A DNA stretch of 64,000 nt, taken from Isoetes taiwanensis (Eukaryota > Streptophyta > Lycopodiopsida > Isoetales > Isoetaceae). This document shows, piece by piece, positions 6,640 through 59,386 of this stretch. The number at the start of each line of letters is the position of its first letter. Within the stretch, counting starts at the first letter, position 1. Position numbers and translations under genes: made by a program. Below the pieces are notes generated by a model. The model ran no database searches, had not been told where the DNA came from, and saw nothing but the letters and a program-made list of their open reading frames with translations. The DNA is taken from positions 434,605 through 498,604 of the forward strand of contig JAJEKV010000182.1 of the NCBI GenBank assembly GCA_021234155.1, written 5' to 3'.

Positions 6640-7957
6640 CCGGATGGTTTCTTGGAACTGTCGGGGATTCCCTTGGCAGAAAGGGGAGAGTCTCAACTCT
6701 ATTGCACCAGATATGGATCTCATTTTCCTCATGGAAACATGGGAACATGCGAGCGCATGACTATAAACCTCCCGCTATCTGCATTTCTCGGTGTTCAATG
6801 TGTGCACAAGCAAGCGAGGGCATGGCGGGGTTGCCTGCTACTATCGTGCAACCTTGGGGCATTCAGTCTCGCTGCACAAAACAGACAGGTACAATCGATA
6901 CTTGTGGGTGCGGGTGCGGCATGACAGTGGCAGCATTCTCTTCATAGCAGCATGCTACTTTCCACATGCCGAGAGCAACTTTTATAACACGCATTCGAAT
7001 GTGGATAGATTGGAGCCCTATGTCGATCTATATGATGACATACAGCAGCACAAACAGTTGGGTAAGGTTATATTGCTTGGCGACTTTAATGCACGCACAG
7101 GAGCCGAGCAGGTCCCAAAATTTGAGCCCCTAGCAGAGGACATCTTGCAGTTGAATCCCGCAGAGGTGGCTTGGTCAAGGGTGTCAGACGACAACCATAT
7201 TTCGCGCTATGGCAGGCAGTTGTTGCTGCTGGGTAGTATCTTTGACCTGGTTATTTGTAATGGGTTGGCACAATGGCCATCTTCTAGCTGCTGCACTTGT
7301 AGACAGGAGAACCAAGGGGGCAGGTCCAGTGTGGTGGATTATCTGCTGGTTGAGGAACAGGATCTGCACCTGGTTACCTATTTCTCCATTGGAACATACA
7401 CCCGGGACGAGGAAGTGGACTCGGACCACCATCCACTATTTGTGCATCTTCATTGGCAAGCTCCCCGTGCATCTACTGTCTCAACACCCCAGGTGCCCCA
7501 GTTGCGCCTGGACTACCACCGTGCAGGGACCTATGCCCAGCTGCTTGAGCATGACCTGGCAGGACCGCTGCAACTCCCCACACTCCAACAGCAATCTGCT
7601 GGGCTGACTCACCTACTTCTGACAGCTGCTGAGAGATGCTTTGGGAGAGGCCGCTCACGGCGGGCCTCAGGCGCTACCACATTCCCCCGCAACAGGTGGT
7701 TCGATGATGACTGTCGAGAGCTCAAGCGCACACTCCGGCAAGTCACTGATCCCACCTCCCGCCCACAGGCCATCAGTCAATACTGCTCCTTCATCAAGAA
7801 CAAGAAAGCCAGATACCTCGCAGAGCATCAGCAACAGATGTTTGGTCTCCTGGATCGGCACCCCAAGACATTCTGGAGAATGGTCTTGAGCAAGACTGCA
7901 CAGCCCACCGGGAACATCACCTCAGAGCAATGGGTACAGTACTTGCAACAGCTTTAG
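6640..7957 (+). pseudogene. LINE E2 ORF2, apurinic-endonuclease domain
   Basis: The 388-codon open segment 6791-7957 contains the APE-type endonuclease motifs LLGDFNARTG, GRSSVVDYLL and SDHHPL in the correct order. The catalytic Asp, Asn and His of those motifs are visible. The N-terminal strand of the domain (WNCRG and LIFLMETW-like residues) is in other frames between 6640 and 6790, so at least one indel lies there. The segment ends at an in-frame TAG (7955-7957), after which the same frame continues for about 40 codons. The domain nicks target DNA to prime reverse transcription. Confidence 0.85.
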
Positions 7958-7999
7958 GACCCGCTCGGGGGCCGGACACCAGTCCCTCCACAGATAGGC

Positions 8000-9141
8000 A
8001 TGGCTCTGGTCATCACAAAGGGGGATGTCATCATGGGCCTACAACGTCTAGCTAATAGGAAGGCAGCAGATTTAGATGGCATGCAGGCGGAACTTCTGAA
8101 ATGGGTTGAACCCCCACTGGTGCCGTTCTCACGGCGCTATTCAACAAGGCATTGCAAGAAGGCTTCCCTCCACAGTGGACCACTAGTAGAGTTGTGCCCA
8201 TATACAAGGCAGGGGACCCTCAATGCCCGGCCAACTATCGTACTATTATGGTCAGCTCTCTCTTTGCAAAACTCTTGGCTGGCATCCTTGAGCAGAGGCT
8301 GACAATATGGGCAGAGGAGGCAGATGTGCGAGCTCTCACACATGCAAGTTTTCGGCCCAGGCATTCCACCATTGATCATATCTTCACTCTGCGCACATTG
8401 GTTGAGGATAGCAGGAATCAACAACAAAACCTGTACTGTTGTTTCGTGATTTTCGCAAAAGCTTTTGACACAGTGCCCCGGGACAAGTTATGGGACAGAC
8501 TGCGGCAGCTCGGGACTCCCCTTGACTTGCAGAACGCAGTGTATAGGTTATACGAGGCATGCTCAGGCCGTATCACATCGTCAGGACAGCCGGTAATCAG
8601 TAGTATTGGAGTCCGTCAAGGTTGCCCCCTCTCCCCCACACTCTTTGGCCTGTACATCGACTAGCTGGAAGATTGGCTCTCTGAGCATGGAGGTTCGGGC
8701 GCCCATCTCATGCATCACACAATCCGGCAACTCATATATGCTGACGATGTCAACCTCCTGGCCTATACTCCAGAGGACATGCAACGTCACCTGGATGCTC
8801 TTGACACTTTTTGTCGATTCACCGGCATGCGGGTTAACTTGGCCAAAACTAGGGTGCTGCTAGTTTCATCATCCCGTCAGCCAAGGCTTCCCTCATTCAC
8901 TTACCAGGGACAGGATGTAGAGGTGTCTCCGACCTACAAGTACTTGGGGATTGAGTTCTCTACTACCACCCATTGGGATGCTGCCATCAGGTTGCGGGTC
9001 ACGGCAGGCTGGAAAGCACTATATGCCATGCAGAACAATAGCCACAAGGCAGAGTTGTACGCCTGGTCCACCAGTCACACTTATTTCGGGCATTGGTCGA
9101 GCCGGTCCTTTTATATGGGGCAAAAGTGTAGGGTCCGATGA
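8000..9141 (+). pseudogene. LINE E2 ORF2, reverse-transcriptase domain
   Basis: RT motifs appear in order: NRKAADLDGMQAELLKW, VVPIYKAGDP...NYRTIMVSSLFAKLL, FAKAFDTVP (first catalytic Asp), GVRQGCPLSPTLFGLYID, and LIYADDVNLL (YADD box). 8000-8110 is in the endonuclease frame and 8152-9141 in the next frame, so there is a frameshift near 8110-8150. TAG at 8662-8664 interrupts YID-x-LEDW. The related copy E4 has Gln at that position, so CAG changed to TAG here. All catalytic residues survive apart from these breaks. Confidence 0.88.
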
Positions 9142-48545: not shown

Positions 48546-50597
48546 TCAACGGGTAACAAGGAAACTAGTGGTGGTTTTAGAAGGGTCCTCGCGTCTGTGC
48601 ATATGCTTCAGAAATGCAGCAGCCTTCCGTTTGCAGCGCTGCGATCCGCTGCTGAGAAGAGGATAAATCGTAGCTTTGATCGAAACATCTTCGAAAATGG
48701 TATCCGCGACTTTGGCATTGCTGGATTTGCCCAGGAGCAGAAGAATTCCGAGGCTGTTTTCCTTGGCCTTCATAGATCCGGTTTTGAGCTGGTTCACGAA
48801 ACTGGCTATGGCGGAAGGGTGCCCCAAAGCATTTACTCCTTCTGGGCACCCGCACAGAAGCGCCATAGCTGCCAATGCATCTTCTACCATTTCGCCCTCT
48901 TCTTCGTTCACCAGATCCAGCAGAACAGCCACTGCTCCGGCGGCCACTGCTTTGGATTTATTCTGCTCGCACACTGCCAGATTGAACAGAGCCGATACGG
49001 CGTCCTTTTGCCCTCTCAGGCTCGCCACACTTACCAAGCTCAGCAATGCCGGAAAAATTTCTGCCCTTTCCCCTATAATCGGCTTGTTCTCTTCCAGCAC
49101 AGACAGACTAAAAATCGTCGCTGCCGCATTTTCCCTTGCCTCTATGCTCAGCCCTGCTGTTAAAATCTGTAGAATTCCTCCCAGCGCTCCCGCTTCCATT
49201 ATCAATTTCTTATTGTTGTCATAAATTGACAGATTCAGCAGAGCCGTTACTGCGTTTTCCTGAGTTTTTGAATCGCATGATGACAGCAGAGGCACTAGAA
49301 ACGGAATTGCTCCTGCTTGCGCTATGCACATTCGATTTTCCATCCCGCATTTGGCCAGAAGACGAAGCTCGTACGCTGCTTGGGTTTGAATTTCTGGAGT
49401 TCCGGTCGCCAATTTGCCCACCAAAAATGACGCTGTTAATTTTGTAGCTTCTAGCGCTGCCTGAGAACTGCCCACTTCGTCTTCATATTTTCCGCCGCTG
49501 TCTCTGAATTTCAGCCCAAATGGGATTTTTCTTCTCTCGCACCACTGCCCGATCAAACTGCGCAGTGCGTAATTCGGTGTCAGGGCCTTGTTCGTCAATT
49601 TTTGCCCTGTTTTTGGACATGTTGCATTTCCAGATTCCATCCATTTTTCAATCGAAGCTCTGTCATACGTCTGCCCTGTTGAAATTATCACCGGATCTCG
49701 CATCAATTCCAGAGTGATTGGACATTTGAATTCATCCGGCGGATTCATGGCCTGCGCATTTCCTAGCTCTGCAGCCCTTTTTGAAGATTCATCCCCAAAA
49801 TCAGAGCTCAAACCCAAACTTTTTCTATTTCTGGGGCTCCATATATCGTTCACATCCAACGGAGCTACTCCATATACTACAAATTTAGAATATTGTAAAA
49901 AGCAAATCAGGCTTTTGATCTTCTTAACCTTTTCCTCTTCTCCGTTTGCCTTTTGATTTGCGGTTTCTTCTTCTAATCTTCTCTGTTCTTTCCAACAATC
50001 TCTGCTGCTTTTTAGCTGCAAAATCTTAAAAATGTTCTCTAATCTGCTTGCTTCGATGGTTTCTTTCCGTTCCAGCTCTTCTAAAATGGTGTTGATCTCT
50101 TTTCGAAGCTTCAACTCTGCCGGATCTACAAATGGTTTTGCCCTTTTCGCCTGTAATTTCACCAATTCAACCTGTTCCTTCAATTCGATCGAAATATCCA
50201 TGAGATTTACAGGGATTGTGGAAAGGGAATGCACCAATTCCATGCCCAATTCATAGAATTTCTCTGATATTGCTTCTGTATCTACAACCATCCAGATCAC
50301 GCTCCATTCTCTGCATTTGCGGAAAAAGAATTTAGCCTTTTGGATAGAACCGTTTACTTCTTTGAATGCGGCCACGGCAGAGGGCGGCAGAGGAACTTTA
50401 TTATCTCGAACTTCTTCAAACAGAGGAGATAGAAGCTTGAGGCGCCGGACTACTACAGTAGCATTTTGGCGCTGGCAGATCGAAGGCCTTCCTAAGCTCA
50501 CCAATTCCTGGATTTGATCTAAAATTTCCTTCACCAGTTCAACATCTGCGCTGTTTTGCACCAAACCGCTGCTTTTTAGTCCAATTTCTTCCGCCAT
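48546..50597 (-). CDS. Plant U-box E3 ubiquitin ligase with ARM repeats (PUB16/17-like)
   Basis: An intact 683-codon single-exon gene. The start sits in an AAAATGGCGG context and is the first Met of the frame. Residues 1-280 form the helical UND domain. Residues 288-361 are the U-box, with the family pattern DEFKCPITLELMRDPVI, STGQTYDR, IEKWM, CPKTGQ and ALRSLI-x-QWCE. Residues about 380-670 are ARM repeats (for example AVTALLNLSIYDNNKKLI and AVSALFNLAVCEQNKSKA). U-box proteins bind E2-ubiquitin and the ARM solenoid binds substrates or receptor kinases. Its length and UND-U-box-ARM order match the PUB16/17/18/19 group, which acts in immunity and stress signalling in angiosperms. The exact orthologue is uncertain. 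There are no stops or frameshifts, so it is very likely functional. Confidence 0.95.
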   Translation of the reverse strand: MAEEIGLKSSGLVQNSADVELVKEILDQIQELVSLGRPSICQRQNATVVVRRLKLLSPLFEEVRDNKVPLPPSAVAAFKEVNGSIQKAKFFFRKCREWSVIWMVVDTEAISEKFYELGMELVHSLSTIPVNLMDISIELKEQVELVKLQAKRAKPFVDPAELKLRKEINTILEELERKETIEASRLENIFKILQLKSSRDCWKEQRRLEEETANQKANGEEEKVKKIKSLICFLQYSKFVVYGVAPLDVNDIWSPRNRKSLGLSSDFGDESSKRAAELGNAQAMNPPDEFKCPITLELMRDPVIISTGQTYDRASIEKWMESGNATCPKTGQKLTNKALTPNYALRSLIGQWCERRKIPFGLKFRDSGGKYEDEVGSSQAALEATKLTASFLVGKLATGTPEIQTQAAYELRLLAKCGMENRMCIAQAGAIPFLVPLLSSCDSKTQENAVTALLNLSIYDNNKKLIMEAGALGGILQILTAGLSIEARENAAATIFSLSVLEENKPIIGERAEIFPALLSLVSVASLRGQKDAVSALFNLAVCEQNKSKAVAAGAVAVLLDLVNEEEGEMVEDALAAMALLCGCPEGVNALGHPSAIASFVNQLKTGSMKAKENSLGILLLLGKSSNAKVADTIFEDVSIKATIYPLLSSGSQRCKRKAAAFLKHMHRREDPSKTTTSFLVTR

Positions 50598-51661
50598 TTT
50601 GTATCAAACAAGCGTCAGATCGGAAACCCAACTCCGTATCTATGGTAAATATGGATGCAATCAATTGGATTCATACCAGATACTGGAAATTTGTAGAATC
50701 AAAGCCTGACCTGACAATGCTATGAACAAAACCTGCTGTTGGTTTTTATTCCTTTTCCAGATGTAACCGCTACTGTACTCCGATGAATCATTATTAGATC
50801 TCTAATCCAAATCCAAATCGGAAAAGCAACAGCGGCAGGCAGTCTTCATCCGTGGTATATCCGTGTGTTCGACATGTTATAGCCACGCCCAAAAAAAATA
50901 CACGGCGTTTTTGTGGACTTAGCCAATTTTTTGCCATTTAAGGCTGGGTATAACATGTCAGTGTCCGACATTTACGGCGCTCGGTCTTCTAGATCCAAAT
51001 CTCGAACTCAACCAAAGCATTCCAGAAATCTGACTTTTTCAGACAGGCATAGCCAGCCTTATCATCACATCGTGGATTTCGTGAACGTGAGATTTTATTT
51101 TTGTTGTTTATGTATTTTTTTCATTGCCTATTTCTCAACATCTAATTAAATATCTCTAGGCTGTCTTATCTATTTAAATAAAAATATACTAGGTTCGAAA
51201 AAAAATAAGCCTCGTCAACATTTTACAACTTCGTGTCCCTTTTCTATTTTAACTTCTTCCACCACAATTCTTTGTGAATTCTTCCACAAACATGCCCACT
51301 ACACCTTATGTTGGGATATCCCTCACAAGCATCAATGTATTGCATCAATGTATTAAAATACAATTACTTTTTAGGGCCTCTGCCCTTTCAGTCCCACTTA
51401 ATAGCTCTGTCTCCATGCAGGATCGTGCCTAAACTTGGGCTATCAAAGACAGCTGTAAAGTTGACCTCCTTATGTCCCATGTCCTTATGTCCCATGTACA
51501 GTTTTGCCCACATAATTGAAAAGTCGCAATGAAAGAAGTAAACAAGAAAAGGTAGAAGAATCCAGTTCAATGCAAAAATGTCAAAATATAAATTTTGTTA
51601 TTCACTCACTCATATATAAGTCAATTTCAATTTTTCTTTGTCTTTTGGAAATAAATATCTT
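50598..51661. other. 5' flank of the PUB gene
   Basis: This holds the presumed PUB promoter and 5' UTR on the minus strand. An AATAAAAACC segment about 145 bp upstream of the ATG (near 50740) is a weak TATA-like candidate. No other feature is supported. Confidence 0.3.
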
Positions 51662-52989: not shown

Positions 52990-53045
52990 TGATCACACCA
53001 ATGACCCCGATCTAGACTTAAGTAATTCCACAAATTATAATCCAT

Positions 53046-53054
53046 TAAACTTAA
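53046..53054. repeat. MULE target-site duplication, left copy
   Basis: TAAACTTAA, repeated at 55439-55447. The unoccupied site in the other LTR reads TAGACTTAA (57516-57524). Confidence 0.95.
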
Positions 53055-53451
53055 GAGAAAATTCCATATATATCCTTGAAGTTTATGAGATTTCCAAATT
53101 TGCCCCTCAAGTTCTGTTAGTTCTAAAAATACCCCTCCTAACTATCTACACGAACTAGTTAAGAGAGCTAAAATCTACAAATTCCAAAAATACCCTCGTA
53201 TTCTTAGTCAGTATTCCAAATTTACCCTTCACATTTTTTGAAATTCCATTACACACAATTGAATCATCACAATTCCATCATCCATGTTCACCACGTGACT
53301 AGACTAGCGCGTTCATATGCATTCTTGATTTGAAGCTCTGCACTAGCCACAAGCATATATGATCCTGCTTCTCCGGCAGCCTGTAAGGTCAACTGGGCTT
53401 GTTCTCTACGTTTAAAGAACCATTTCATCAACTTCTGACGTATCAACTCCA

Positions 53452-54647
53452 TCATTGGTAGAACAGGTAATTCCCTAGCTTCAAGAATTCATGAGTTGAC
53501 TGATTCTGCAATGTTGGATGTAAGATGGTCATAGCGGGATCCCTTAAAGTGTGCATTTGACCAATGGGTTGGGCTGTGTTAAGAAGCCAAGTAGTAGCTT
53601 CTGGTTTTATAGCCCGCATTTCTGATATGGCAACATCAAAATCTGATATTGTTGATGCATAAGCAGCTTTCCAAAGCAACTTTATCAATTCCAAATTCTT
53701 GAATTCTTTCCTCATGTTTTCAGATAAGTGACGCATATAATAAGCATGAGGAACATCTCCAAAAATAGTAGAGACACCTTCAATCAATCCCTTTTACCTG
53801 TCAGATAAGAAGGTTATAGTGTTTGTTGCAGCAAGACTATCACGCAAGTTTCGAAGAAACCACAACCAATTATTGTCATTTTCAGCAATAACAACACCAA
53901 AAGCAATCGGAAGCAATTGCCCAGCTGCATCTATACCTATAGCGGTCATCAAAATGCCCAAATATCTATTTTTCAGATGTGTTCCATCCAAACATATAAC
54001 TTGCGCAATTGCGGTGGCAAATGCGAATGCATCTTTGCATATGATATATATACATGCGTGTAAACTTTTGGATCATCATCATGCTCCACCAAAACTACAC
54101 TGTCTGGATTACTGCGCAGTATTTCATGGCAATACTTTTTCAATAAGGAATAACTTTCCTTCTGATTTCCGTTGATCCTCTCTACTGCTAATTCCTTTGC
54201 CTGCCATGCTCTTTTGTATGGCACAGTAATACCATCTTCACGCCTCAAATCACCAAGAATTGAAATTGGTCTATAAATAAGATTGGTCATCAAAAATCTT
54301 TTCCACAAACCGTGTTGCTATCCAATTTGCAGTCGCCTCTTTGTTTCCCAAATACTCAGTGCCAACACAATTATGATGTCCTGATAACTTTTTAATTGCA
54401 CAACTAGGGCAATTACCTATAAGGGAAGCATGCAACTTCCACGGGCATCCTTGAATTTTGCACTTTACTGTGTATGAATTTTGCACTTTACTGTGTACCT
54501 CTTCCTGTCAGATGCAATAACACGGGGCTCTACCGCAGAGGAAATGCAAACATTCTTGACATGTGAACGAAGATCTTGCATGGAATCAAACTCCAATCCT
54601 ACTTCCAAATCCATACTGCAATATGAAACAAACATTGATATAAACAC
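53452..54647 (-). pseudogene. MuDR-family transposase of the MULE, broken
   Basis: The N-terminal DNA-binding region (54271-54647) includes YTVKCKIQGCPWKLHASL and SGHHNCVGTEYLG, the zinc-binding MuDR domain. The central part (53973-54308) has PISILGDLRREDGITVPYKR. The catalytic core begins LDGTHLKNRYLGILMTAIGI (first Asp, near 53990) and reaches ITFLSDR and KGLIEG (second Asp), with AYYMRHLSENM following. Breaks are a 23-bp tandem duplication at 54452-54497, a frameshift near 54040, and an in-frame TAA between SDR and KGLIE (about 53794) where family members usually have Gln. It is not functional as it stands. Confidence 0.88.
54452..54497. repeat. 23-bp tandem duplication in the transposase gene
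   Basis: Two perfect units (54452-54474 and 54475-54497). As 23 is not a multiple of three, the duplication shifts the transposase frame between its two N-terminal segments. Confidence 0.9.
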
Positions 54648-56322
54648 ATTGATTTTGACCTATCATTAAAATGTGATATATCTCCATCTCTAATGAAAAT
54701 CAAAGAAGGCAAATCAGTTAAACATGGAACAGAGTGCATGTATGAGCTTCTATATGGCAGAATGCCATTCAAAGGCATAAGTCATGAATTAACCCTGTTA
54801 AATGCAAAAGAGATTATGAAGGCTGCGCTTGCCAAAGATTCCAACATTTTGAGAGCTGAAAGAGAATAGAATTATGAAACAAATTGCTTACCTGGGATCG
54901 AACAAAAGGAAACTGAATTAGGGGCCCTTCTTCCTTGGTAAAATCTTGAATGCCCTGATCTTAATCATGGAAGAAGATGCAATTTCGAAATTGAAAAGAC
55001 ACATTAGAGGCTGAATTAGGAGTTTTTTTTTCTTGATAAGATCATGAATGCCTTGATCAAAGGCATGGAAGAATAGATAACAGTCATGCAATTTCGAAAT
55101 TGAAAAGGGAGATTTTTGTTCCTGTAGAAATAATTTTGGAATAAGAAAACTGAGATTGCTTGCAAGTAGGTAATTGTCTAGAAAGAAACGAAATGGGGAG
55201 GACACATTACCTGCATGCAAATTCATTGATGAATCGGGAGCTTCCAAAGGCTAAGAATTCAGGTTTTCTCCACCGACAACGCTCTTTTCTGCTCTTCTGT
55301 TGCCACTTTTTTTTTTCCTTAACTATTTTTAACGGCTATAGGTTAACTTGGTTAGTGAAGGGTATATTTGGAATTAAGGAAATTTGAAGGAAAAAATTGA
55401 AAATCTCATTAAGTTCAGGGGATTTTTAAAATTTTCCCTAAACTTAATCTAGAGGAAGCTAAATTCTTTGCAAGCTAAATCCAATAAACCATCATTATTA
55501 ACCACACCAGTCGAGCCTTAATCCAAAACTATGATTATTCAAGTCATCTAAAAAGACTTCTAGATTAAAAGAAAGTTATGAGATCAAAGAAATGAATATC
55601 AGATTACACCAATAATCTGACAGTCTCAACTAGTTCACCATAAACTAGTTCAAAGATCTAGTTCACCAAAACTAGTTCAAAGACCTAGTTCATCAAAACT
55701 AGTACAAAAGTGTAGATTTTAAGACAAAGATAGCTCACCACCCAATAGGCTTTGGAACTCAAGTTTTCGGCAAACCATAGCAAGGCAATTGCAGAATACT
55801 GCATCCATCTGACCAACTTGCAGCTTCTCTCCTCAAGCTAGTTTTTCAGAATACGAGGCTCCAAGAAGCAGGCTCAAGGTCAGCGACATGATATTGAAGA
55901 TGATTAGATTACAAGGCTTTGGAAAAAGTAATGGCTTTCTTTGGAATCAAAGTTCATGTTTGTAAAGGAGCCATCTTTGACCCCTTATTACATTTTTGGC
56001 CATTACTCCACCATACAGATGAATCACGAGAATGCTATCCAATACGAAAACTAGACTTCGAGACGGTTTTAAAGAAGTAAAAATTGCCTCAGTCGAAGCT
56101 TCAGTTGCAGAGATATGTGTAGATGAAGTTCAACCCTTATTTATAGATATCTCCTGCTACTTTAGCCTTTTTTACTTAGCAAGCCTTTTTAGCATCATAA
56201 TTAACTATAGACCATAGGTTCCCTTTATTGCCTTGCTATCAATTTGCCTTCACTTAGTTCCCCATGCCAATACACAAAAATTAACATCTAGACCACTCTC
56301 TCGAGCTATCATGTTCATATCA

Positions 56323-56336
56323 ATTCTTCCCTTTAA
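56323..56336 (-). other. Polypurine tract of the LTR element
   Basis: On the minus strand TTAAAGGGAAGAAT lies directly before the 3' LTR start TGATATGAAC. This is the usual plus-strand primer position. Confidence 0.75.
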
Positions 56337-57439
56337 CAACTAACTTCAGTTGTAACCACAAATGACAAATTAAGCTCCAACTCAATTTGCGATACTTGAG
56401 CACCAAATCAGTCCGTTTGTACTTGAGCACCAACTCAATCCATTTGTAAATGAGCACCAACTCAATACATTTCTACATGAGCGCCAACTCATTTCATTTG
56501 AAGATCACCAACTTATTCCATTTCAAGGTCCAAAGGCTAGGATTATGATCTCACAAATAGCACCAACTATTCTTACAATCACAATTGTTGTGGCGAAGGA
56601 TTTAAGTTAAATTACTGGAAGGATTGAATTGATCTACGAAGTTGGGCTGCGATTAACAAGGTTTTAAGTTGTACTAACTAAAAAGTAAAATTTGAATACA
56701 AAGGATGTGTAAGGTTTAAGAAAGAGTCACGGATTCTTGTCGAAGAACCAACCTCAACAAGTAGCACCAACTACAACTCAAGTTTTAGGCACCAATCGAA
56801 AAGTTTCAACGCCATTCATTAATATCAAATATTTATGGCAGCAACCATAATTTTGTGCAAATATTAATGGAATGAACAACCATTAGAAGGATACGTTACA
56901 ATCATAAAATAGATTTACAATTCCTCTAGTGGCATAAAAAGTTTTCATATATCCACAATTACCTACAAGCAAACTCTAATCAAAAGATGCAGTTTACATT
57001 GTTAAGGATTTAGTTTAGTTTGAATAGAAATAGTTTTGCCCAGCGTAGTTACATAAGAGTTTAATCAGAGATCCATCTTCGCCAAAGAGATGGATTGTCA
57101 ATTTTGGTTAGGTCTAATTTGAAGGAGATCCATTTTGGTAAAAAGAAATGAATTGATAATGTAGGATAGGCTCGGTTCGCACTGCTTATTCCAAATCGCA
57201 TGTATATATTAAACACTTATCTATGTTTCTGCAACAAAAAAGGATTTGCCACATAGGTATTTATGTGCAACTCTAGAATGCTCTTTTTCTTTAACCGGGT
57301 TAGATTGGTAAGACTAATCAAGGACTTATAACATAGATTCATAGAGAGAGCATCATTTGGATTCTCAAGAAAAGGATTTCTATTCTAGTTTGCAATATCC
57401 GGCACCAACTAGATGACTTGCAAACGCCAAGAATATCTA
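56337..57439 (-). other. Non-coding interior of the LTR element, with about 32-bp repeats
   Basis: No ORF of note. At about 56375-56520 the phrase TGAGCACCAACTCAAT-x-CATTTGTA occurs about five times at a 30-34 bp spacing with substitutions. Confidence 0.6.
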
Positions 57440-57453
57440 GGCTCTGACACCAA
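57440..57453 (-). other. Primer-binding site (initiator-Met type)
   Basis: On the minus strand TTGGTGTCAGAGCC follows the 5' LTR end ...CATATCA. It contains TGGTGTCAGAGC, one mismatch from the common plant PBS TGGTATCAGAGC. Confidence 0.8.
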
Positions 57454-58583
57454 TGATATGGATCGCACCAATAATCCCAATCCAAACTTAATTAAGTCCA
57501 CAAATTATAATCCATTAGACTTAATCTAGAGGAAGTTACATCCTTTGCAAGCCAAATACAATAAACCATCATTAGTAACCCCATCATTCGAGCTTAATCT
57601 AAGAAGAAAAGTTATAATTATATATTCAAATCATGTAAAAGACTTCTAGATTAAAAAAATGCTATAAGATTGAAAAAATGAATATCAGATTACACCAATA
57701 ATCTGATAGTCTCAACTAGTTCAAAGATCTAGTTCACCAAAACTAGTTCGAAGACCTAATTCACCAAAACTAGTTCAAAGGTAGTTTAAGAAAGAGATAG
57801 CTCACCACCCAACGGGGCATTGGACTCGAGCTTTCAGCAAACCATAGCAAGGCAATTGCAGAATATCGCATCCATCGGACCAACTTGCAGCTCCTCTCCT
57901 TAAGCCAGCTTTTCAGAATACATGGCTCCAAGAACTAGGCTCACGGTCCGCGATAGGATATTGAAGATAATCATATTACAAGACTTTGGAAAAAGTAATG
58001 GTTTTCTTTGGAATTAAGTTCATGTTTGCAAAGCAGTCATCTTTGACCCCTTATTATCAGTGTAGTACCGTACTTCCCGTATCGTACGTGTATAGTATAT
58101 ATGCAACGTCACGATGCGTCACGAGGGCGGTTTAGCGTACAAGCGTCGTCAAAGTTGTTGTTTAAAGTACGCCAGTGGTGCGTGCGGTACCATAAAATCG
58201 TCACGATGCGTCACGTTAACCCAAAAAATTTATATTTTATTTTTTTACGAAAAGTACTTGTCGCAGTACACCTATAAAGTGCGCATGCAGGTACCGCATT
58301 ATGTAAACAACAAACTATTTTTTTTCTTATTTGATGCACAAAATGAAGTACGTATAGTACGTACAGGTACGGTACCTTAAGTATGGAAAACGTAACGTAC
58401 GCGTACGTAACCTACACTGCTTATTATATTTTTAGCAAGCTTTTTTAGCATCATAATTAATTATAGACTATAGGTTGCCTTTATTGCCTTGCCTTGCTGT
58501 CAATTTGCCTTCACTTAGTTCCTCATGCTAATTCAACAAAATTAACATCTATACCACTCCCTCGAACTACCATATTCAAATCA
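57454..58583 (-). repeat. 5' LTR, interrupted by a hAT MITE
   Basis: Aligns with the 3' LTR on both sides of the hAT insertion. It lacks about 180 bp that the 3' LTR has at 55985-56170. The ends read TGATATGG and TTCAAATCA on the plus strand. Confidence 0.85.
58058..58419. mobile_element. hAT-type MITE, 362 bp
   Basis: The terminal inverted repeats CAGTGTAG and CTACACTG are perfect over 8 bp. The flanking CTTATTAT is duplicated exactly (58050-58057 and 58420-58427), the 8-bp size of hAT elements. The interior carries the repeated motif CGTCACGATGCGTCACG (58108 and 58198) and many GTAC/CGTAC steps, and encodes nothing. The other LTR of the host element shows the empty site (near 55978). Confidence 0.92.
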
Positions 58584-59386
58584 GAAGCTACTCTACTCCA
58601 GGATATTTTAATGGATTGCAATTTCATGACATCTTTATTTCTGCATGCTTTATTTGATTTGCAAGGCATAGTGGTCAGCAACATGGGCGGATCTTGCTTT
58701 GTATTCTTATATCTTTAGTTTCAAGACTAGACGAACATAATAAAGAGCGAAGAATAGAGTCCCTATTTAGACCACCGTTTGAGCCTCCAAGAACAGAGGT
58801 CTTGATATGCGTAACCCCATGCATCACATGGTATCTACAAAACTATTGATAGGTATCTCATGATTTGGAAACTACCTAACTCAACTTGTTAAAACTTGAT
58901 GGTATCAAGTGTTTTCTCTATATATTGGTCTATATATGGTTGAAAGATGTTAGGATGTACCATTTCTGAAACTTACCAAAGTACCTATACTAGGTACTTC
59001 AGAACTGGGTACTTTTTCCTTATCTTTTCATTAAAACTATAAATTCCAAAATAAAAGCCAAAAGATATGTTAATATTCAAAGTTAACATAAGGATAATAC
59101 TATTGGAGGCCAAAATAAATACACCATTTTTTTATTTTCTTATTTTTGAAGAATTGACAAGGATTTTGTATGAAGTTACATGCAAAGTATTGCATGATGT
59201 ACAAGGAAAATAGGAAATATTACATGTAGTTTCTGTCCACGAAAAATAGGAAATTAATTGAAACTAGCTACATTCACCTCTAAAGGACAGAATTTAAGTC
59301 AAAATTTTAAATCAGAATAATTTTCAATCAAAGTAAAACCAGATAACATGTGTTTTTATTAGGAAAGCTGAAATAGAAGGTGGCAC
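58584..59386. other. AT-rich spacer
   Basis: No gene or element recognised. A near-palindrome GTACCTATACTAGGTAC lies near 58981. Confidence 0.4.

Follow-up and report, generated by a model that had tools for sequence, protein, structure and literature searches.

The window analysed here is a stretch of 64,000 nucleotides from Isoetes taiwanensis (C999:434605-498604), and searches were run against a genome of 1.66 Gb in 1110 contigs. The locus is an old non-coding plant LTR retrotransposon whose two LTRs have been entered by different DNA transposons, one in each. The left-hand LTR (LTR1, 52990-56322, minus strand) is the 3' LTR in the direction of the element; it is split by a MULE, its outer end has been cut back by a 13-bp deletion, and its sequence proper comprises the pieces on either side of the MULE at about 52991-53054 and 55439-56322. 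The right-hand LTR (LTR2, 57454-58583, minus strand) is the 5' LTR, contains a MITE as well as a deletion, and reads TGATATGG...AATCA in the orientation of the window. The internal region between them (56323-57453, minus strand) has a polypurine tract, AAAGGGAAGAAT, at the inner end of LTR1 (56323-56334, minus strand) and a primer binding site, TGGTGTCAGAGCC, at its other end (57440-57452, minus strand), where the inner end of LTR2 reads ATATCA-T-TGGTGTCAGAGCC on the minus strand. The primer binding site agrees in 12 of 13 positions with the complement of the 3' end of initiator Met tRNA. Six initiator Met tRNA genes were matched in the genome, the matched part ending CTGGCTCTGAT, and in the mature tRNA this part is followed by A and CCA. 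Since the primer binding site lies at the inner end of LTR2 and the polypurine tract at that of LTR1, the element runs from right to left. Both motifs had been reported in the initial annotation and were recovered here.

Without its inserts the element measures about 2.8 kb, as calculated from the coordinates, with an LTR1 of about 0.9 kb and an internal region of 1.1 kb. The internal region gave no Pfam match in three minus-strand frames and contains no ORF of at least 110 aa, so that no gag-pol coding region was found. Being non-coding, the element is considered non-autonomous. Relatives of the internal region are present in the genome, with 59 matches among the best 40 of 562 candidates. 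As regards the neighbourhood, a 685-aa plant U-box/armadillo ORF (48546-50603, minus strand) is found at a distance of about 2.4 kb, the element being upstream of it on the same strand. LINE-like remnants at 6767-9141 on the plus strand contain a reverse transcriptase domain and gave weak matches to endonuclease.

Local alignment of the two halves of the element gave three collinear LTR blocks with identities of 85-89%. These pair 52991-53054 with 57461-57524 (86%), 55439-55990 with 57516-58056 (83%, gaps counted) and 56176-56322 with 58432-58583 (86%, gaps counted). Aligned piece by piece without the inserts, the pieces not being joined, the LTRs differ at 98 of 733 sites (63 transitions and 35 transversions), corresponding to a K2P distance of 0.149 with a standard error of 0.016. 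Trees were built from 12 of 15 loci (all except L005, L006 and L011) and from both LTRs of the window element; L007 pieces of 102 and 59 bases were left out. In an 11-row tree of pieces longer than 300 bases, LTR1 and LTR2 are neighbours with a support of 90/88, which is below the strong mark of 95/80. In a 16-row tree, in which L013, L014 and L015 each fill less than half of the columns, LTR2 groups with L012-L015 at 99/96, and LTR1 together with this group is separated from the remaining 10 rows with a support of 95/90.

Searches with the flanks led to copies of parts of the locus elsewhere in the genome. The first of these, L012 (C999:413500-421000), lies on the opposite strand and corresponds to the locus from 52632 in the left flank, across the LTR border, to 55487 in LTR1. 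Two further copies, L013 and L014, lie about 18.6 kb apart on C1058 and contain LTR2 from 57915 to its end as well as the right flank up to 58914. The same arrangement is found in L015 (C915:2524500-2530500), which is much more diverged; its similarity to L013 is uneven, with 93% over one alignment of 3.2 kb and 79% over the next 2.2 kb. In L012:5214-5958, the left flank-LTR1 piece is separated by 3 bp from a piece of LTR2 of the same source element (57664-57930) in inverted orientation, and the piece in L013, which starts at 57915, overlaps this inverted piece by 16 bp.

The border in L012 reads CAAGTTG-GAAGC-CGATATGGATC, while the window has AAATCA-GAAGC-TACTC at the right-hand border of LTR2. 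The presence of GAAGC at both borders identifies it as the 5-bp target duplication of the LTR element, its right copy lying at 58584-58588 and its left copy, which has been deleted in the window, being read from the paralogue L012. At the left border of the window, CAAGTTGATC, 13 bp are gone compared with L012, including the duplication and the first bases of the LTR. The flanking base beside the LTR has changed on the right in L013 and L014 (AAAGC). L004 confirms such LTR ends: it is a single LTR, has no internal match in the 3.5 kb fetched and is flanked by CTATC on both sides. LTR2, L004 and L007 begin with TGATATGG at this end, some other family loci begin differently (for example with TGTTATGG), and at the outer end of LTR1 the sequence is CAAGTTGATCACACC. 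The initial annotation regarded the TG...CA ends as all visible. They are present at LTR2 and at the inner end of LTR1, but LTR1 has lost its outer end, and in L012 the first base of the LTR is C in place of T, so that it starts with CG. Position 52990 does not hold the first TG of the LTR itself; the TG seen there is made of flanking and inner LTR bases because the 13-bp deletion removed the true start of the LTR.

These borders bear on how the two LTRs came to stand together. They might stem from separate insertions of the same family that were joined by ectopic recombination, for which one could point to the 13% difference between the LTRs and to the window's own left border, where a target duplication is missing. 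Via L012, however, GAAGC is recovered at both outer ends, and the chance of an exact match of 5 bases at a fixed place is about 1 in 1024; the trees place LTR1 next to LTR2, and the primer binding site and polypurine tract abut the inner LTR ends. We hold an origin by recombination to be very unlikely, and the shared duplication largely refutes it. A single LTR insertion is supported by the shared GAAGC, by the position of the LTRs in the trees and by the empty sites for the two DNA transposons in the partner LTR and in other rows. That the two LTRs belong to one element, as first proposed, is borne out by the collinear blocks, the trees and the duplication.

The MULE in LTR1 (53055-55438, minus strand) is a defective copy with a remnant of transposase and terminal inverted repeats. 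It is flanked by the 9-bp target duplication TAAACTTAA at 53046-53054 and 55439-55447, and the empty site, TAGACTTAA, is found in LTR2 at 57516-57524, in agreement with the initial annotation. The transposase domain PF10551 was detected in the one frame scanned with a score of 58.1 bits (cut-off 27.6; E 1.3e-15), and its coordinates, 53716-54000 on the minus strand, were derived from residues 501-595 of that frame. The ends of the MULE cross-match over about 90 bp on opposite strands in many rows of its relatives and thus represent long terminal inverted repeats. The six longest rows of relatives show 91-93% identity and end at the same right border or close to it, and the end motifs are also present in the 10 relatives for which both ends were fetched. 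In seven of these 10 the 9-bp duplication is exact, in one case with the right end shifted by one base, and the remaining three have one or two mismatches even with shifts of up to four bases allowed, so that the borders proposed for the window hold in other copies. Between query positions 244 and 275, several relatives have about 600 bp that are missing from the window copy. In its 9-bp duplication, its terminal inverted repeats of about 90 bp and its PF10551 domain the window copy resembles known MULEs, and there is nothing special about it. A search at the insertion site, in which 29 of 29 candidates were scored, returned 29 rows, namely LTR2, two of the split LTR1 and 26 others; all of these 26, including L012, run through the site without the MULE. 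L012 has a single TAAACTTAA and carries the base A that is seen in both target copies and is absent from LTR2; hence the A in LTR1 is older than the MULE.

The MITE in LTR2 (58058-58419) is 362 bp long, with the ends CAGTGTAG...CTACACTG, and has a single-strand DNA fold z of -2.25. The 8-bp target duplication CTTATTAT is present on both sides (58050-58057 and 58420-58427), as had been noticed before. Its relatives, of which 44 matches were obtained among the best 40 of 199 candidates, are small and have short terminal inverted repeats. Of 20 relatives fetched, 15 are flanked by exact 8-bp duplications, which shows that these borders also hold outside the window; taking exact ends, two have one mismatch, one has two mismatches and two have no duplication, and one of the two with a single mismatch becomes exact when both ends are shifted by one base. 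We take this MITE to be of hAT type from the length of the duplication and the ends, following the usual superfamily rules. It is like hAT-derived MITEs in its 8-bp duplication, its CAGTGTAG ends, its 362 bp and its many copies. The empty site, CTTATTAC, is present in the partner LTR as the initial annotation had claimed, but at 55984-55991 and not near 55978. Among the best 40 of 1151 candidates, 41 rows were obtained at this site (LTR1, two of the split LTR2 and 38 others), and all 38 rows other than the window element run through it uninterrupted. L013 and L014 have a single CTTATTAT and no MITE, and the MITE is absent from L015 as well.

The pattern of presence and absence taken by itself would also be expected if the MULE or the MITE had already been part of the LTR element before it inserted and had later been lost cleanly from the partner LTR. 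At insertion, both LTRs are copied from one template, which argues against such a history. Moreover, the sites are single and free of footprints in the partner LTR and in L012-L014, and the rows from other copies run through them in 26 of 26 cases for the MULE and in 38 of 38 for the MITE (best 40 of 1151 candidates). We regard a prior presence of either transposon as extremely improbable; arrival of both by a cut-and-paste mechanism after the insertion of the LTR element would account for the duplications and the empty sites.

A stretch of about 180 bp in LTR1 (approximately 55992-56175) is absent from LTR2. From a comparison of the two LTRs it cannot be told whether the stretch was inserted in LTR1 or deleted from LTR2. 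Among the best 40 of 1151 candidates, 36 of 38 rows from other copies span the stretch and the remaining two end short of it owing to where the alignments stop, and the plain reading would therefore be a deletion in LTR2. The query contained the stretch, so that rows holding it were favoured; even so, with this number of copies spanning it, an insertion in LTR1 seems to us to have hardly any likelihood. The second LTR of L001 is also without part of this area, as judged from the loci read closely. The same LTR2 deletion is found in L013, L014 and L015, which indicates that it is older than the MITE. The indel noted initially is therefore real, and whereas it had been listed after the LTR insertion along with the two transposons, the partial copies place it before the MITE.

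The partial copies also allow the order of events to be considered. Since L013-L015 share the LTR2 deletion, this deletion precedes the partial duplications. The MULE and the 13-bp deletion are absent from L012, and the MITE is absent from L013-L015, which places all three later and in the window copy. Between the window and L012 the K2P distance is 0.069 (720 sites), and between the window and L013 it is 0.044 (618 sites). The history that we consider very probable as a whole starts with a non-coding LTR retrotransposon that would have inserted on the minus strand, duplicating GAAGC, presumably after being reverse-transcribed by enzymes that another element provided. Its LTRs would have been identical at insertion and would have diverged later. 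LTR2 would then have lost about 180 bp, and parts of the locus would have been copied elsewhere in the genome. Later, and in the window copy alone, the MULE would have jumped into LTR1, the hAT-type MITE into LTR2, and 13 bp would have been lost at the outer border of LTR1. What can be read directly is the shared deletion, the borders with their duplications, and the sites left empty in partner LTR and paralogues; the order of events given here would follow by parsimony. The initial annotation stated that the order was fixed by the locus itself; its first step, the LTR element, stands, but the window alone leaves MULE, MITE and indel unordered, and with the paralogues the deletion precedes the MITE while the MULE and the MITE are without order relative to each other. 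Overall, the core of that first reading was right, its observation is partly confirmed and its interpretation supported, and one LTR end was misread.

The divergence of the LTRs, which it had been suggested to date, corresponds to 5.7, 11.5 and 29.8 million years at 1.3e-8, 6.5e-9 and 2.5e-9 substitutions per site and year, respectively; these rates are assumed, and we claim only the relative order. One clock does not hold across the copies, as is evident from the excess of changes in L015. In the block 57915-58056 the K2P distance between L015 and LTR2 is 0.242, compared with 0.131 between LTR1 and LTR2. In a block of 141 sites L015 has 27 changes of its own, the window 2 and L013 none, and the excess in L015 is also seen in two other blocks. 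Either L015 evolves fast or its assembly is poor.

It is conceivable, if rather doubtful, that the half-copies L012 on the one hand and L013-L015 on the other go back to a single break-and-copy event in which LTR2 was split at 57915-57930, with the 16-bp overlap left behind. If true, one old LTR element would record a chromosomal repair event in addition to two transposon hits. No inverted repeats framing the captured pieces were found in L012 (longest 25 of 49 pairs) and L013. The flanks and L013 gave no Pfam match in the frames scanned, which for the right flank were those of the plus strand. An intact empty site of the LTR element was not seen among the matches listed (best 40 of 1604 and best 40 of 1043 candidates), where most rows were neighbouring repeats. 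A duplicated PUB gene behind the paralogous flanks was considered and found no support: among the best 40 of 50 candidates, the 40 rows other than that of the window were partial matches (67-90%, the longest covering 305 bp of the query), and none of the matches listed lay on C1058, on C915 or elsewhere on C999.

The element is like the non-autonomous TRIM and LARD elements of plants in its two LTRs, its initiator Met tRNA primer binding site, its polypurine tract, its 5-bp duplication and in that no coding region was found. For a LARD, its internal region of 1.1 kb is short. The size given for TRIMs in the available text of PMC4528315 is below 540 bp, and the window element, with about 2.8 kb without inserts and an LTR1 of about 0.9 kb, is far above it. 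Among the first ten family loci (L001-L010), two more have LTR parts spread by extra DNA, L003 by about 2.9 kb and L008 by about 0.75 kb. L002 and L003 look like duplicates of one LTR element, with similar left flanks and LTRs that pair across the loci in the tree; the parts of the left LTR are about 2.9 kb apart in L003 and not in L002. In L005 (C963:17646500-17652500) and L006 (C1100:8707500-8713500), related elements follow one another in tandem as LTR-internal-LTR-internal arrays, in which the unit recurs about every 1.95-1.97 kb at 97-99.6% identity, similar to the tandem pattern that the available text of PMC4528315 names for the maize TRIM Wukong.

Nested insertions in MULEs have been described (PMC3903597, in the text available), and REANNOTATE, as far as its available description goes, resolves nested transposon clusters by taking the insertion order from the nesting and the age from LTR divergence (PMC2672092). 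What the locus described here offers beyond clusters of that type is empty-site evidence, from the partner LTR as well as from several partial duplicates. The history of nested transposons is ordinary in kind and does not change views of how such elements work, while the insertion record is unusually well documented. The locus illustrates that a paralogue can supply a target duplication that has been lost, and that what look like TG...CA ends need checking against family copies. It combines an LTR clock with partial duplications, a deletion whose place in the order is established and two insertions that have internal as well as external empty sites, and can serve as a clean case for teaching and calibration.
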